This document shows positions 8,121-14,802 of a stretch of DNA of 42,258 nt, in pieces. The stretch comes from Alphaproteobacteria bacterium. GTDB taxonomy: Bacteria; Pseudomonadota; Alphaproteobacteria; Micropepsales; Micropepsaceae. Under the pieces are notes generated by a model, which had not been told where the DNA came from, did no database searches, and was given only the letters and a program-made list of their open reading frames with translations. Positions within the stretch are counted from its first letter, which is position 1. The number at the start of each line of letters is the position of its first letter. Location: assembly GCA_013697055.1 (NCBI GenBank), contig JACCXK010000076.1, positions 1 to 42,258 on the forward strand, given 5' to 3'. The position numbers and the translations under genes were made by a program.

Positions 8121-8670
8121 GTTGCGAGCTTCGTCTCTTGGCGCAATACCCAAGAACGCCGCGGGAAATCCTTTAAGAGTTGAGGACCCGGCTATGCGCG
8201 ACTTGGGCGAACGTCGAAATGTTCGGCTGATACCAGCTTTTCCTGGGTGGCCGTAGGCGTCATCAGCATGAGATGCCGTCACAGACCCTCGATCAAGCCT
8301 TCGCGCGGGCTCGCTGTTAGCGCAAAGAAGGCAGTTTCCAGGGCGGCGACTTTTCCACCCCACTCTAGGCTGATCAGACGGCCGCCATGCCGATTTCTGG
8401 CCTTGCCCCGGGTAACCGACCCATTGGGGTCTTTCACCGCCATACGCCCTACTGCCTGTCTCTCATCGCCTCGCCGATCGGCTACTTCGGCAGCACTTCG
8501 GCATAGGCCGATTTTCACTGAAGTGTACCTGCTCCCGTGGTGCCAATTCCCTGTTCGTCCGACAAAGTTCCCGGTTCGCATCGGCAGGGATTTCGCCAAA
8601 AAAACTGAATTCGCTGCTATTTCGATGCCGATAACCGGCTTTCGCAGGAAATAGCCGAAATTTCCCAGTT

Positions 8671-8740
8671 ATTTCCCTGATCAACAGGGAATTGGGGCAG
8701 AGACGGGTTTGATCTGCACTGGGACCACAGCCACCCACAC
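8671..8740 (+). repeat. Left copy of island-flanking direct repeat
   Basis: Aligned without gaps to 14261-14330, 52 of 70 bases match by my count, including ATTTCCC, AGACGGGTT, GCACT and CCACAGCCACCC. Both copies are in the same orientation and lie on either side of the helicase genes. Similarity appears to extend, with gaps, about 100 bases further left in both copies. Confidence 0.6.
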
Positions 8741-8947
8741 TGTGCTCACCTGCAAATTTCCAAATCGAAATAATACGGGCGAAATTCCCGAGGCTTAGCT
8801 GCGCTATCTCTCCAAAGGAGCATCAATCGGTCTTGTTTCAGGGCGGTTTTCGCCGCCGATGACCCGCCAGTCTCCTGGCCAGTATGTTTGATTTCCCAAT
8901 TCCTCGAGAGACTTAGCTCGAGACCGGTTCGATGTCAGTGGAGACTG

Positions 8948-8962: not shown

Positions 8963-9021
8963 AGCAAGCAATTCTCAGGCGATTATAGAGCAGCTAGCCA
9001 GGTGCAGCACCGACCCGCGCT

Positions 9022-10617
9022 TTGGTAGCGACGCTGCCACTGTCAGCGGTTATTCGCCACAATCGTTCGCCCCAACTGCCTAACAGCGGTGCCGAAGCTC
9101 CAGTGGCACGGCGAAACAAGCAGGTGGGAGCTGCGATTTCATTGAATTCCCTTGCAGGAACTGGGGGGTTGGCTTTGACGGATGGCACCGCACTACCGTT
9201 TCTCCTGGCTGCCCGTGCGCAGGGTGAGATGGCCGCCAGCTCAGGCCAAGCGCGAGCATTCTTTGCGGAGGGCTTGTGTTCGAGCTATGAGGCCTTTCAC
9301 CACACACGTGATAATCGCGGAGATGTGCGGGACGTTGATGACGAAGGCAACGAACAGACCGCGCCTACGCTAGCCATTAACTCCGATGATCCGCTAGTAC
9401 CCATCATCTGGTACGAGGACCAGATTAGCGCGCTGATCCCGTCGCGAGAGACATCCCCCGAAAACCTGGTCCAACACCCGAAGCTGCGCGCGGTCATAGA
9501 CCGCGTAGTTTACTTGTGGTCCCGCGGCGAGAAAGTGCTCGTGTTTTGCTTCTACCGCGAAACCGCCAAGGCGCTGCGCGACCACCTGAAGGCCGAAGTG
9601 GCGGCTCGAATCGAACGGCTCATCGGCGACAAATTGGGGATCACCGACAAGGCGGAAATCGTACGGGCGATCGAGCGTATCGTCCGAAGTTTGAGTGAAT
9701 CCACCGGGCCGTATCACAAGGCGCTCGAGGCTTACCTGGAGGAGATCCTTAAAGACGCGCGCTTCAAAATCCTGCTTCCGTGGAACGACCAGCTGCGTCA
9801 AATGCTCGTGGCTTACTTTCGTTCGCCAGCGTTTCTCGCTCGCCACGTCCCTGTCGAACTGGTTTTTGCCGATGGCGGCGTCAAGCACGGGGCGGGGAGC
9901 GGGCCCGAGCTTCTGATAGAAGAAATCAGGAACGCCCCAGATGCCCGGGCGCAGGAGCACATCCGCCAGTTCCTCGATTTTGCCAAGGAACTGGCCGAAC
10001 GCAGCCAAAACACACACGCCGGTACCGGCTTTGTGGGCGGTGCGGACGACGAACGCGAAACCCAACTCGACCAGTACCTCGCCGCAGTAGCGGTATACTC
10101 GGAGTTGCAGCAGGACGACCGGGCGCACGACGATGACGAAGATGCCCGCAAACCGGGTTCATATCGCGTGTTGCCGGTGGTACGCATGGTCTTCGGCGAC
10201 ACAAAGCCGGACGTTCGCGAGCGCCTGATGCAAGCCTTCAACAGCCCATTATTTCCCGAGATTTTGGTGAGTAGCTCCGTTCTCGGCGAAGGCGTCGATT
10301 TGCACCGGTTCTGCCGATATATCGTGCATCACGACCTGTGCTGGAATCCAAGCACGCTAGAGCAGCGCACGGGCCGCCTGGACCGCATTGGGTGCAAAGC
10401 CGAATACAGTCACCAGCCTATCGTAATCTATGAACCATATATCGGTGGCAGCGCTGATGAGAAAATGTTTCGCGTCGTTCAGGACCGCGAACGCTGGTTC
10501 CAAGTGGTTATGGGCCAGAAATTTGAATTCAACGAGGCTAATTCAGAGAAGATTGCCGATCGCGTCCCGCTACCTGAGGCGCTGGCCCGCAGGTTAATCT
10601 TCAATCTCCATGTCTAG
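9022..10617 (+). pseudogene. N-terminally truncated SF2 (SNF2-like) helicase
   Basis: The frame encodes only the second RecA-like helicase domain. From about residue 55 it resembles large island-borne SNF2/DEAD-type helicases (RAFFAEGLCSSYEAFHHTR). Motif IV (EKVLVFCFYRETAKALRDHL) is followed by a long helical insertion, then motif V (EILVSSSVLGEGVDLHRF) and motif VI (NPSTLEQRTGRLDRIG) and a C-terminal DEKMFRVVQDRERWFQVVMG stretch. The first RecA-like domain with Walker A and DEAH boxes is absent. The first 50 or so residues are unlike the family, and the only upstream start is a TTG without a Shine-Dalgarno. It cannot be an active ATPase alone. It converges on the ParB-nuclease-helicase gene with 35 bases between stops. 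A related full-length helicase may have accompanied that gene in an ancestral island. Confidence 0.7.
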
Positions 10618-10652
10618 AATCCAGAAACCCCCTAAACACCGCTCTGAAACCG

Positions 10653-13610
10653 TTATTGAACCATTGCACCAGTCCTATTTGCGTCTTTTGCAACGGCTTC
10701 GGCCCGGGCAAATAGATTCAAACGAACCAAGTCGTCGATTGAACCAAAGCTCACATCTTGCAGTTTCCCACTTTGAACCACTATGGCGAGACATTGCGCG
10801 CGACTAATGGCTACGTTGAATCGGTTCCGACTGAACAAAAAGTCCGTTCCCCGTGGGGCGTCGTTTCCGTCTGAGGTTGTCATGGAAACGATTACTACTG
10901 CCGCTTCCTGCCCCTGAAACTTGTCCACTGTCCCTATCCGCGCGCTCGTCGGCAATGCACGCCTTAATCGGTTAACCTGCATATTAAATGGCGCAACGAT
11001 CAGAATATCAGCCAACGTGATAGCCCGCGTTTTTCCATCCTGTTCGTGCAGTTTTTGTTTCAAGAGATTGGCCACCAGCTTCACTATCGCATCCGCCTCC
11101 TCCGCACTGCTCTGAGTACACCCCTCATGATCAAGCGTGAGAAAACTGACCCCCGCGGGCTTTAACGCAGGGTGGGACTTGGGCCCCAGTTCTAGATATC
11201 GCAGCGACGTTTTAGCGTTGGCCGTGAGCCGGCCGTCATAGATGGCATCCGAGATCAGCTGGCAAACGTCCGGGTGCATTCTATAAGACACGTTCAGCAG
11301 GATGCCGCGCTCGGGAGAAACCGTCGCTTCGTTCTGAAGAAGATAATCCAGGCAAGACAGGCCCGTCTCTCCTGGGTGAACTCCCTGGATCGGTTGTGCT
11401 AGCTGCATTTGGTCACCGACAAGGACCAAATTGCGCGCGCACCTGGCCATTGCGATCAAATTTCCCAACGAGACCTGCCCGGCTTCATCGACAAAAAGAT
11501 AATCGTAAGGCGTATCATCCACGGCAAAATGGAAAGCTGTTCCGCCAACCAGCCGGTGTCGCTCATCAATGTCCGCCGTTTTCTGCGCCGTCTCAATAAA
11601 GGTGCCATCAAAAGCAGTTTCCGGATCGCTTCTGCTTCCTTTCTTAGCGCCTACAAAACTAAACTTCGCGTTACGGGCGCGATCCTCTACGGCTGACAAC
11701 ACATTATTGATGGCTTTGTGGGAATTGGAAGAAACTGCCACACGTTTGCCTTCCTTGAGCAAAGCAAGGATCGCATGAGAAGTGGTATATGTTTTCCCGG
11801 TCCCTGGCGGCCCTTGAATAAAAAGTGTGCTTTGGTCCAGCGCGCGTACGGCTGCAACCGAGCCTGCAAGCAGATCTGCCCCTTCAATCACTGGCGCGAT
11901 TGCTTTGCGCCCACGCAGCTTAGGAGGTGCACGAAGCAGAAAATCCATTATTGCCTGATCATTAGCGAGGTTGCCCACCGCAAAGCGGCTGGCGAAGGCT
12001 CCCACTGCTTCCGCGAGCACCTTTTGATCGAGTGGTGCGCCCGGCGATAGGGAACAGTTTGGCGGAAAATCCCCTTTGGCAATGCCTCGCTTGAGAACGA
12101 CTATGCCCTCGTCCGGTTCTACCGCCTCAATTGTACCTGCGTATTCGCACGTCGCCGATATCGTTGGACTAACACTGGGGCGAAGCTTTGTGTCCTGCGG
12201 GGGAAATCGGTAGGTAGCCCGATATGACTTCTTAACGATCTCAACCGGTTTCTGCGGGTCTAAGGTAAGACCGCCCAAGCTTTCTGGATCATCAACCAGT
12301 TCGTCGTCGGACCAGGTCTGTCGGTCAAACATTGCCCACCACTGCGGCTTTTGGGACCTTTGATGAAACCATAGGAGCTCGGCAACCAAAGTCCGCACGC
12401 GTTCGTCACCCGCTTTGGAATTTCGCACACGCGCCGCCAGTTCATGCTTCAGCCGGTCTCGGGCCTCTCGGTCTGCTGCTCTTTGCGCTGCCTCCTCATC
12501 CAGTTCCACTTTTGGCGCGGCTAGCCCGTAGTCTGCACCCGCTGGACGCAATGAAACCAACCAGTCGCGGAGCTTTGCCGTCGAAATGCAGTCGTCTTCG
12601 TTGTAGTGGGCAATCGCATCGAGAATCGATTGATCCGCCGTCACGAGCCACTTCTCATACTCCACGATGCTGTCCGCCGCATTCGTGACTTCGCCGGTAC
12701 GCCCGTCCCAGTAAATTTTCTCCAGGTCCTTCAGAGAATAACTTTCAGTAGATGCTCGTAACGCCTGCCGGGTAACCCGAAACAGATCCACAAACCGCTG
12801 GTCGCGAAGCATCTGGTCGAGCTCGGCTTCCATCGTGGCATAGCGCATAGCCAGCCTCTTAAGGGCCGACTCTTCGTACTGCGCGTAGTGATAAATGTGA
12901 GCAGTCGGAAACCGCTGAAAATGCCCAACCAAAAGACGCATGAACTCCTCGAACGCGGCCTTCTCCGCGGCACGGTCATGCCCCCAGATCGCTTGATAGA
13001 CCGGCTCTTGGCTCTCATTCAGTTGGCCATACAGGCCGAATAGGTATTCGAGGCCCTCCGGATATAGCGGGTCGCCCTCCATGTCGAAAAAGAGATCGCC
13101 AGGCGCAGGTACGGGCAACAACGCAAACCCCCTTCCCGCGTGGACAGGAAGAACCTCCACACTGTGCTTTTCGCCGCTCGCCACGGCTTTCTGCAACCGG
13201 GCCTGAGACACCAGCTTTGCCACTACCTCCGGTGAAATACCGCTTATGGAATACTCGGGCTTTAGCCCCGCCAACCCGGCGAGAGTCGTGATGCCAGCCG
13301 CCTCCAATTTCAACATTTGATTTCTGGCAAGACCAGCTACAAATATTGGGCTATCCAAGTCCGTCATGTCACCCAGGCGCAGACAAGGTATCTCGGGAAT
13401 GCCCAACGACTGTGCAGCTGCAACGCGTCCGTGCCCAGCAACGATCTGGCTCTTGTCGTCTATAAGGACCGGATTCATAAAGCCAAAGCATCGTATCGAA
13501 TCAGCAATCTGTTTGATCTGACGCTTTGAATGCGTGCGCGCATTACGCGTCGCGGAATGTAATTCGGATATTTTTATTAGTTGAATTGTGCGGCACTCGA
13601 CAGCGGCCAT
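10653..13610 (-). CDS. ParB/Srx-like domain fused to exonuclease-SF1 helicase (TM0106-type chimera)
   Basis: A 985-residue protein. Residues about 9-83 are a ParB/Srx-like N-terminal domain (RNARTHSKRQIKQIADSIR, then IVAGHGRVAAAQSLGI) of the kind usually attached to DNA methylases. From about 88 it switches to the middle of TM0106-type RecB-like nuclease-helicases: an AGL helical segment (90-115), then an RNase-H-fold 3'-5' exonuclease-like domain (GDLFFDMEGDPLYPEGLEYL at 171-190; closing YNEDDCISTAKLRDWL). Next comes an SF1 DNA2/UPF1-like helicase: Walker A IQGPPGTGKT near 600, Walker B VDEAG near 706, LVGDQMQLAQP, SYRMHP, GTVDKFQGQEA and NVAISRAQ. The usual N-terminal PD-(D/E)XK nuclease is replaced by the ParB domain. 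ATG 13610 follows AGAGG at 9 bases; the TTG six bases upstream is less likely. Likely role: DNA processing or defence. Confidence 0.8.
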   Translation of the reverse strand: MAAVECRTIQLIKISELHSATRNARTHSKRQIKQIADSIRCFGFMNPVLIDDKSQIVAGHGRVAAAQSLGIPEIPCLRLGDMTDLDSPIFVAGLARNQMLKLEAAGITTLAGLAGLKPEYSISGISPEVVAKLVSQARLQKAVASGEKHSVEVLPVHAGRGFALLPVPAPGDLFFDMEGDPLYPEGLEYLFGLYGQLNESQEPVYQAIWGHDRAAEKAAFEEFMRLLVGHFQRFPTAHIYHYAQYEESALKRLAMRYATMEAELDQMLRDQRFVDLFRVTRQALRASTESYSLKDLEKIYWDGRTGEVTNAADSIVEYEKWLVTADQSILDAIAHYNEDDCISTAKLRDWLVSLRPAGADYGLAAPKVELDEEAAQRAADREARDRLKHELAARVRNSKAGDERVRTLVAELLWFHQRSQKPQWWAMFDRQTWSDDELVDDPESLGGLTLDPQKPVEIVKKSYRATYRFPPQDTKLRPSVSPTISATCEYAGTIEAVEPDEGIVVLKRGIAKGDFPPNCSLSPGAPLDQKVLAEAVGAFASRFAVGNLANDQAIMDFLLRAPPKLRGRKAIAPVIEGADLLAGSVAAVRALDQSTLFIQGPPGTGKTYTTSHAILALLKEGKRVAVSSNSHKAINNVLSAVEDRARNAKFSFVGAKKGSRSDPETAFDGTFIETAQKTADIDERHRLVGGTAFHFAVDDTPYDYLFVDEAGQVSLGNLIAMARCARNLVLVGDQMQLAQPIQGVHPGETGLSCLDYLLQNEATVSPERGILLNVSYRMHPDVCQLISDAIYDGRLTANAKTSLRYLELGPKSHPALKPAGVSFLTLDHEGCTQSSAEEADAIVKLVANLLKQKLHEQDGKTRAITLADILIVAPFNMQVNRLRRALPTSARIGTVDKFQGQEAAVVIVSMTTSDGNDAPRGTDFLFSRNRFNVAISRAQCLAIVVQSGKLQDVSFGSIDDLVRLNLFARAEAVAKDANRTGAMVQ

Positions 13611-13706
13611 GAGCAAATTCCTCTCGATATTTTTCTCCGGGAAATTCCGCGGAGAGGAGAATTTTTGCTCAGTTTCCCTAGGTCGCGAAGCAACGGGTCA
13701 AACCTA

Positions 13707-13724
13707 AAATGCGACGTCGCATTT
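13707..13724. promoter_or_regulatory. 18-bp perfect palindrome upstream of ParB-helicase gene
   Basis: AAATGCGACGTCGCATTT reads identically on both strands and is centred on GACGTC, about 100 bases upstream of the ATG at 13610. A perfect 18-base dyad is unlikely by chance at any one promoter. It may be an operator for a dimeric repressor or a binding site for the ParB-like domain itself; both are inference. Confidence 0.55.
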
Positions 13725-14131
13725 CGTCAACATCCGGTTTGAAATATATTCTGGCCGTGATTTTTCAGCGTCGCTACGTGCAGTCGCAGCGATGCTCTAG
13801 ATAAAATCCCCGTTGCGATTCCAATGTTGTTGCAACGATTGTTGTTGAGAGTTGCTGAATTCAAAATATTGCTGCTTCAAAGGAATGATGCTGTTCCTAA
13901 ATGTCTCTCGTCTCAGTGCTCTTTGATGCTGGTGATCGCGCTAGGTCATTATGTGGCTGCTGACTAAAAAGTTATCGAAGTGATGTTATTCATTTCAAAC
14001 GCAAGTGAACCTTAGTGAACCCCGAATATCAGGGCGCTGTGGTCGGTCTTCGTGGTTCTGACTGAGATGGCCTGCTCAATGGTGTTTCGCCCGATTTGCG
14101 TTCGTGATGTCAGCCAAAAGCGTTCCTGGTT

Positions 14132-14153
14132 CCCGCCTGATACCCGCCTGATA
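14132..14153 (+). repeat. Tandem duplication of 11-base unit CCCGCCTGATA
   Basis: CCCGCCTGATA occurs twice back to back (14132-14142, 14143-14153) inside the right flank. Probably a local replication slip. Confidence 0.6.
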
Positions 14154-14260
14154 AAGTCCCTGTTGTTCTCAGGACTGCCGGCCGGCGGTTGGGGTAAAAA
14201 AGTGCGCTTTTCAGCCCTGGAACCAAGGCAAATCCGGGAAATTCCCCGAAAATCGGTGTA

Positions 14261-14330
14261 ATTTCCCGAATTAACATGGAAAACAGGCTGAGACGGGTTA
14301 ACCCAGCACTGCGTCCACAGCCACCCCGAC
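14261..14330 (+). repeat. Right copy of island-flanking direct repeat
   Basis: Matches 8671-8740 at 52 of 70 ungapped positions, same orientation. Immediately to its right the sequence turns GC-rich and compact, so it coincides with the boundary between the accessory and the ordered half of the window. Confidence 0.6.
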
Positions 14331-14357
14331 CTGCCATTTCGGCAATGTTCAGAGCCT

Positions 14358-14618
14358 TCAGGATTGGCCGAAGGGCGGGTCACCCGGCTTGCCAGAAGAT
14401 GCGCTGATGGTCGCTCCCACCAACCTGTTCATTCTCATGTTCAAACTGCGCATCTCCGCGCGAAGTTTGCGCAGGGAATAGATGAGATAGAAGTTCTGCA
14501 GAAGCAGCAGGACAATAATCGCCGACGCGATCAAAGCGCCCAAGATGCCGAAATGGGCCATCCGGAACGCCCAGCTTTTGACGTCGTCCGTCGGCAGCAT
14601 ATCGAACATTTCGAACAC
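14358..14618 (-). CDS. Small single-pass membrane protein with coiled-coil tail
   Basis: An 86-residue protein has a short N-terminal region (MFEMFDMLPTDDVKSWAFRM), one strong membrane helix (FGILGALIASAIIVLLLLQN), a basic amphipathic segment (YSLRKLRAEMRSLNMRMNRL) that could form a short coiled coil on the cytoplasmic side, and a polar tail. The GTG at 14618 has GAGG eight bases upstream; the ATG at 14609 has no such signal, so GTG is preferred. It is divergent from the TPR-methyltransferase gene. No family is recognised and no function is proposed. Confidence 0.55.
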   Translation of the reverse strand: MFEMFDMLPTDDVKSWAFRMAHFGILGALIASAIIVLLLLQNFYLIYSLRKLRAEMRSLNMRMNRLVGATISASSGKPGDPPFGQS

Positions 14619-14802
14619 GGCTACACCTCAATCCGAATGACATAATCAATCTTGCAGCGCCCGGCTTGTCAAACGGACGACTTCAGTCCCGCTTCCAGGC
14701 CGCGCCGGGATGCAAGTCCGGCGCCCTTGTTTGCGCCATCGTCCTTTGCGTCCCGGTATGGCATAACGGCGCCATAGAGGCGCGGGTGGGCGCCGGGGGC
14801 GG

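Follow-up and report, generated by a model that had tools for sequence, protein, structure and literature searches.

A methyltransferase-type ParB/Srx domain joined in frame to a TM0106 exonuclease-helicase in an alphaproteobacterial island

We analyzed a window of 42,258 nucleotides, the whole of contig JACCXK010000076.1 as read on its forward strand (assembly GCA_013697055.1, Micropepsaceae). Its minus strand carries one long gene in which a ParB/Srx fold (residues 1-83) is followed by a TM0106 body with exonuclease and SF1 helicase (TIGR03491; residues 86-985). We take TM0106 to be the same family as COG2251. The gene starts with ATG, and an in-frame TTG lies at 13616. It sits in an island with a GC content of about 0.50-0.60, compared with 0.60-0.67 to the right. 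The convergent neighbour is a helicase remnant that lacks residues 1-459 of 936, about half of its protein, and contains no stop in 522 codons. Both outer edges of the 4.3-kb block 9049-13355 thus lie inside interrupted genes. A degenerate and apparently non-coding element of roughly 130 nt with TTCCCTG...CAGGGAA arms, here called R, lies upstream of the long gene and again beyond the block (Table 1).

Table 1 Features of the locus, and copies of element R at related loci
Feature	Position	Strand	Basis and remarks
Chimeric open reading frame	10653..13610	minus	985 codons plus stop; ATG at 13610, stop at 10653-10655
ParB/Srx-fold domain of ParB-methyltransferase type, residues 1-83	13362..13610	minus	Box I THSKRQIKQIADSI, Box II GHGR; without Box III helix
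Junction, residues 84-86 (D-L-D)	13353..13361	minus	alignments of both families
Helical TM0106 region between nuclease and exonuclease, residues 86-145	13176..13355	minus	alignment; helices in model
RNase_H_2, predicted 3'-5' exonuclease, residues 173-352	12555..13094	minus	Pfam, E 1.1e-29; PMC3985635 (part of the text)
SF1 helicase core, residues 575-950	10761..11888	minus	nearest solved relatives IGHMBP2/SMUBP-2, UPF1, Dna2
Shine-Dalgarno-like GAGAGGA	13619..13625	minus	sequence; 8 nt ahead of ATG
5'-truncated helicase remnant, convergent	9049..10617	plus	corresponds to residues 460-933 of an open frame of 936 residues in genome G026
Element R	14201..14332	plus	about 0.6 kb upstream of ATG
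Second copy of R	8613..8745	plus	direct orientation, left of block 9049-13355
Copies of R at other ParB loci	L006:2637-2767, L016:2121-2258, L025:9767-9915, L056:1903-2035, L039:126-219, L009:1436-1581, L038:2983-3048		profile search

The fusion is present in the assembled sequence and combines the domains of two known families in a new way. Similarity to methyltransferases stops at about residue 83 and similarity to TM0106 sets in at residues 84-86, just past the TM0106 cysteine cluster and just past the final strand of the ParB core. The GC content on the two sides of the joint is 0.51 and 0.55. Comparison of 9001-9100 with 13311-13400 revealed neither a target-site duplication nor microhomology of 7-12 nt. 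The unbroken frame of 985 codons claimed in the original prediction is confirmed by translation, and the computed joint falls within the interval 13340-13365 proposed there.

Positions 217-462 of the 462 in TIGR03491 match residues 91-351 (E 1e-53), with a score of 182.9 bits against a curated cut-off of 97.45. The N-terminal RecB/Cas4-like nuclease with its cysteine cluster (positions 1-216) is absent, as the match begins at 217 and the alignment agrees; this is the TM0106 body without RecB-like nuclease that had been predicted. It opens with DSPIFVAGL, where full-length proteins read ADSPIFVAGL, and continues into the region of residues 86-145, which is presumably helix-hairpin-helix-like. 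Then follow, as in other TM0106 proteins, RNase_H_2 and a C-terminal AAA helicase (AAA_11 from residue 589, AAA_12 to residue 945). The translation contains GPPGTGKT, DEAGQ, GDQMQL and AISRA, in accordance with the prediction of intact helicase motifs. The sequences nearest to the helicase are those of IGHMBP2, UPF1 and Dna2, and a weak model gives the same kin by fold. This full-length AlphaFold model (mean pLDDT 67.5, pTM 0.44; Foldseek TM-scores of 0.13-0.23 by query length) served for secondary structure and for naming the helicase kin, and for nothing else. The available part of PMC3985635 groups the RNase H-like domain of COG2251 with presumed 3'-5' exonucleases.

The TM0106 part is 58-63% identical to the nearest full-length proteins. 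It keeps 118 of the 119 columns that are invariant in 11 homologs, the exception being a G to S change at residue 479; leave-one-out values for the homologs themselves range from 0.79 to 1.0. In the tree the chimera groups with two genomes of the same genus, G354 and G031, with moderate support (84/89). Measured from the shared node its branch is 0.38, those of G354 and G031 0.13+0.28 and 0.13+0.26. As this is no longer than the branches of its relatives, we see no faster evolution and no sign of relaxed constraint. The kept residues and the branch length point to constraint or to recency, and speak against a gene that has long been dead.

At the front end, Pfam ParB_N matches residues 9-77 with 25.6 bits (E 1.3e-5), slightly below its cut-off of 26.3, and the PADLOC model for type II methyltransferases (MTase_II) matches residues 8-86 (E 3.4e-15). 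The closest sequences are N-termini of ParB-methyltransferases (45-56% identity), and solved ParB and sulfiredoxin sequences appear among the weak matches. An AlphaFold prediction for residues 1-105 reached a mean pLDDT of 83.7 and aligns with ParB from M. xanthus (7bnk_B; Z 12.1 over 93 residues, rmsd 3.8) and with sulfiredoxin (6ky4; Z 11.4 over 85 residues, rmsd 3.4). A ParB/Srx fold is therefore predicted with confidence for residues 1-80, and the N-terminal domain named in the original prediction is borne out by Pfam, PADLOC and the fold alignment alike.

In 30 relatives, 27 columns of the ParB part are conserved at 85% or more. All 22 that lie within residues 1-83 are kept in the chimera; past the joint, two of five coincide (A95 and N97). 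These 22 columns and the 118 kept on the TM0106 side exceed what chance would produce. ParB-methyltransferases continue at this point into a QKRAYVLADNKLALNAGW-type helix and then into the methyltransferase. We take this helix as the equivalent of Box III; the names of the boxes follow PMC12704722, and their placement on the residues of the chimera is our own. An ADNK/ADNR helix occurs in all 12 ParB rows of the alignment and is missing from the chimera, which has TM0106 sequence in its place. Box III is accordingly not recognized in the chimera, where A95 and N97 are the only coincidences. In the 105-residue model a TM0106-derived helix, residues 88-104, lies behind the ParB core (pLDDT 61-65). 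According to the available part of PMC12704722, orphan forms of the ParB-CTPase fold often lack Box III, and bacterial SAM-methyltransferase fusions of this fold bound ATP, so the cap may bind a nucleotide weakly. The designation of the module as a CTPase in the original prediction is not supported: its ParB is of the methyltransferase type, whose fusions bound ATP according to that same part, and the junction has removed the Box III helix.

On its sequence, and with the upstream element in agreement, the front end is a descendant of a ParB-DNA-methyltransferase and not of a partition ParB. A partition-type ParB was rejected, as the 24 Pfam families scanned gave neither an HTH nor a C-terminal dimerisation domain. 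The seven neighboring ORFs scanned include no parA. Likewise, none of these 24 families identified a methyltransferase catalytic domain, and the window holds no significant remnant of one.

Methyltransferase-type ParB folds are very common in viral contigs, with at least 595 relatives among the 600 matches listed. In 80 viral loci retained (L084-L163), the fold is followed by a methyltransferase-like motif in 46 and by no such motif in 34; the split was made by short motifs and is rough, so that some of the 34 may be missed methyltransferases. About a dozen of the latter end, by eye, in a short zinc-ribbon-like tail. Altered forms occur elsewhere in the genus: a truncated ParB remnant with 79 open codons (L075:5372-5608), and an apparently frameshifted ParB-methyltransferase whose two parts lie in overlapping frames (L077:91-1076), the shift being close to where the ParB fold ends.

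R was found in the window among the 20 listed of 53 direct repeat families. A profile built from eight copies and searched within 1.5 kb of ParB loci placed it upstream of seven of 39 distinct other ParB loci, with side and main orientation preserved; the loci were selected for ParB, and the frequency applies to such loci only. Four of the seven had served as profile seeds. Among the other three, L039 is a fair match (E 1e-7) and L009 and L038 are weak (E 6e-4 and 3e-4). When blastn was run with the two copies from the window alone, L006, L016, L025, L039 and L056 were found. The element at L025 also contains a short, weak match in the opposite orientation. R further occurs 2.7 kb upstream of the remnant L075 and once without ParB (L076). 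When the genus was searched at the DNA level with the upstream region, four candidates being scored per genome, only G426 and G018 gave a match besides the genome itself. Judging from these similarities, the ParB part seems to have brought the upstream region of a methyltransferase gene with it. Candidate roles for R are a mobile-element end, a regulatory RNA or a binding site, and an element that recurs upstream of ParB-type methyltransferase genes is a testable side finding.

Within the genus, TM0106 occurs in four of 68 other genomes. For a wider comparison, samples of 385 genomes from the class and 398 from the phylum were used, with repeats removed and the two best candidates per genome scored; a match over at least 500 residues was counted as a TM0106 place. 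Among the matches listed there are 26 such places in 24 other genomes across the genus, class and phylum samples, and none repeats the ParB::TM0106 junction, all beginning at residue 81 or later. Two of them, G505 at a contig end and G624, which starts at residue 400, are partial; the remaining 24 lie in open frames of 1,093 to 1,267 codons. A further weak match in G243 covers residues 78-355. ParB does not precede TM0106 at any of 21 loci inspected, two of which are apparently one gene: 20 begin with a RecB-like nuclease and one, L082, has another N-terminus. At L082:830-2215, on a phage contig, a TM0106-like exonuclease module without helicase stands behind a different, cysteine-containing N-terminus, which shows that this module can follow an N-terminus of another kind. 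The relatives L010 and L058, also exonucleases without helicase, were rejected as ParB fusions since they have a RecB-like nuclease in front, and L005, considered as a second fusion for its match to residues 6-172, is a ParB-methyltransferase.

Matches in plasmids (40 listed of 568 records) start at residue 74 or later, and those at three named MAG loci at residues 84-90. None of 204 phage records covers 80% of the chimera, and viral contigs scanned with the whole protein gave no match. Among the titles listed in the literature searches, none describes a ParB-TM0106 fusion. With two candidates scored per genome and 40 of 568 plasmid records listed, a divergent fusion could escape these samples. 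The role in defence or plasmid control once suggested for the gene finds no backing, as the seven neighboring ORFs scanned offer no such partner and no second genome with the fusion was found.

The genome itself was searched for the two halves that the fusion lacks. The RecB-like part has no match in it, and all four other TM0106-carrying genomes gave a match in the control; a separate nuclease gene replacing the lost part was rejected on this basis. A methyltransferase query returned a distinct intact gene on contig C119, the ParB part of the chimera and a weak match on C201, where the gene encodes a full methyltransferase including an N-terminus of its own (CcrM-like, our name). Neither missing half was thus located elsewhere in the draft assembly, which is 97.14% complete, has 2.32% contamination and comprises 256 contigs. 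Apart from element R, 13280-14700 has no second copy in this genome.

Overall, we consider the chimera to be probably (about 0.55) the product of a recent illegitimate recombination, a side effect of island decay and not a machine shaped by selection. Such an event would have joined the upstream region, the ribosome-binding site and the first 83 codons of a phage-type ParB-methyltransferase gene in frame to the exonuclease-helicase part of TM0106. Translation would proceed from the start signals of the methyltransferase gene, and the product, lacking the cysteine-cluster nuclease, could couple 3'-5' exonuclease activity to an SF1 translocase. Its ParB cap would fold, and because its Box III helix was cut off it would be passive or at most weakly nucleotide-binding. 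In our view the cap has no selected function, as the fusion was found in one genome, no partners are seen and the neighboring gene is broken. The original prediction had also allowed for an accidental junction, and this alternative is in our reading the likelier one, as biological recombination and not as an assembly error. Its impression that the gene looks expressed and active does not follow from the open frame: the broken helicase next to it is stop-free over 522 codons as well, so the absence of stops in the island says only that the events are recent.

The best arguments against a by-product are the clean joint and the kept conserved residues; the coincidence of A95 and N97, the helix 88-104 behind the ParB core and the other N-terminus of L082 also count against it. 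They lend some weight to a selected new architecture, possible though on balance unlikely, in which a ParB fold with a bound NTP, probably ATP, would gate the exonuclease-translocase or load it onto DNA. It might be, for instance, an anti-phage or anti-plasmid nuclease with a nucleotide-linked sensor in place of the RecB-like nuclease. Residues are kept in both halves, the branch is not longer than those of full-length relatives, the ParB/Srx fold is confidently predicted for residues 1-80 and start signals are present. Moreover, the ParB-CTPase fold is joined to many partners, including methyltransferases and HNH domains, in the available part of PMC12704722, and the rough motif test left 34 of 80 viral ParB loci without a methyltransferase-like motif. 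Selection is made less credible by the single genome, the lack of a visible partner, the broken neighbor and the lost Box III helix. In these 34 viral variants at most 382 residues follow the fold, too few for a nuclease-helicase; one of them, L159, is cut by a contig end. The working design that would suit a selected protein is itself doubtful: a methyltransferase-derived ParB fold, with a TM0106 helix standing in for Box III, would serve as switch or loader of a DEDD exonuclease-SF1 translocase without RecB/Cas4-like nuclease.

An assembly artefact, a false join at 13353-13361 between two sequences that belong to different places or different organisms, appears improbable. The many contigs of the draft, its contamination and the want of a second genome with the join would fit such an error. 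It is opposed by the single-copy state of 13280-14700 outside R, the kept frame, a join at domain boundaries, the similar GC content across the joint (0.51 vs 0.55) and the failure to locate either missing half elsewhere in the assembly. Least probable is a dead pseudogene, untranscribed or useless and intact because the event is recent, which the equally stop-free broken helicase would suit and against which stand the start signals and upstream region that arrived with the ParB part and a branch no longer than those of full-length relatives.

If the fusion is real and used, it would be a snapshot of a new nuclease-helicase architecture being born, in which an exonuclease-helicase acquires the start signals of a phage-type methyltransferase gene along with its nucleotide-binding cap. 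If it is not used, it is a clean case of plausible-looking fusions arising in decaying islands, and it cautions against inferring function from an unbroken frame.

Compared with known systems, the chimera shares exonuclease and helicase with the TM0106 family (TIGR03491, C-terminal SF1 helicase), whereas a ParB fold takes the place of the RecB/Cas4-like nuclease and its cysteine cluster. Its helicase core is related by sequence and fold to Dna2 and to IGHMBP2/UPF1-like SF1 helicases, but its exonuclease is of another fold and it carries a ParB cap in addition. Membership of MkoA/MkoC, which we take to be the Mokosh defence helicases, is not supported: no match extends over a whole model, and the best stretch, positions 772-1073 of the 1112 in MkoA, is the SF1 core. 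With ParB-N DNA methyltransferases of the phage and orphan type it has residues 1-83 and the upstream R in common, while the Box III helix and the whole methyltransferase are missing. Finally, in the ParB-CTPase-fold fusions of PMC12704722, the available part of which describes no exonuclease-helicase as a partner, the fold is likewise joined to an unrelated enzyme; in the chimera this enzyme is an exonuclease-helicase.
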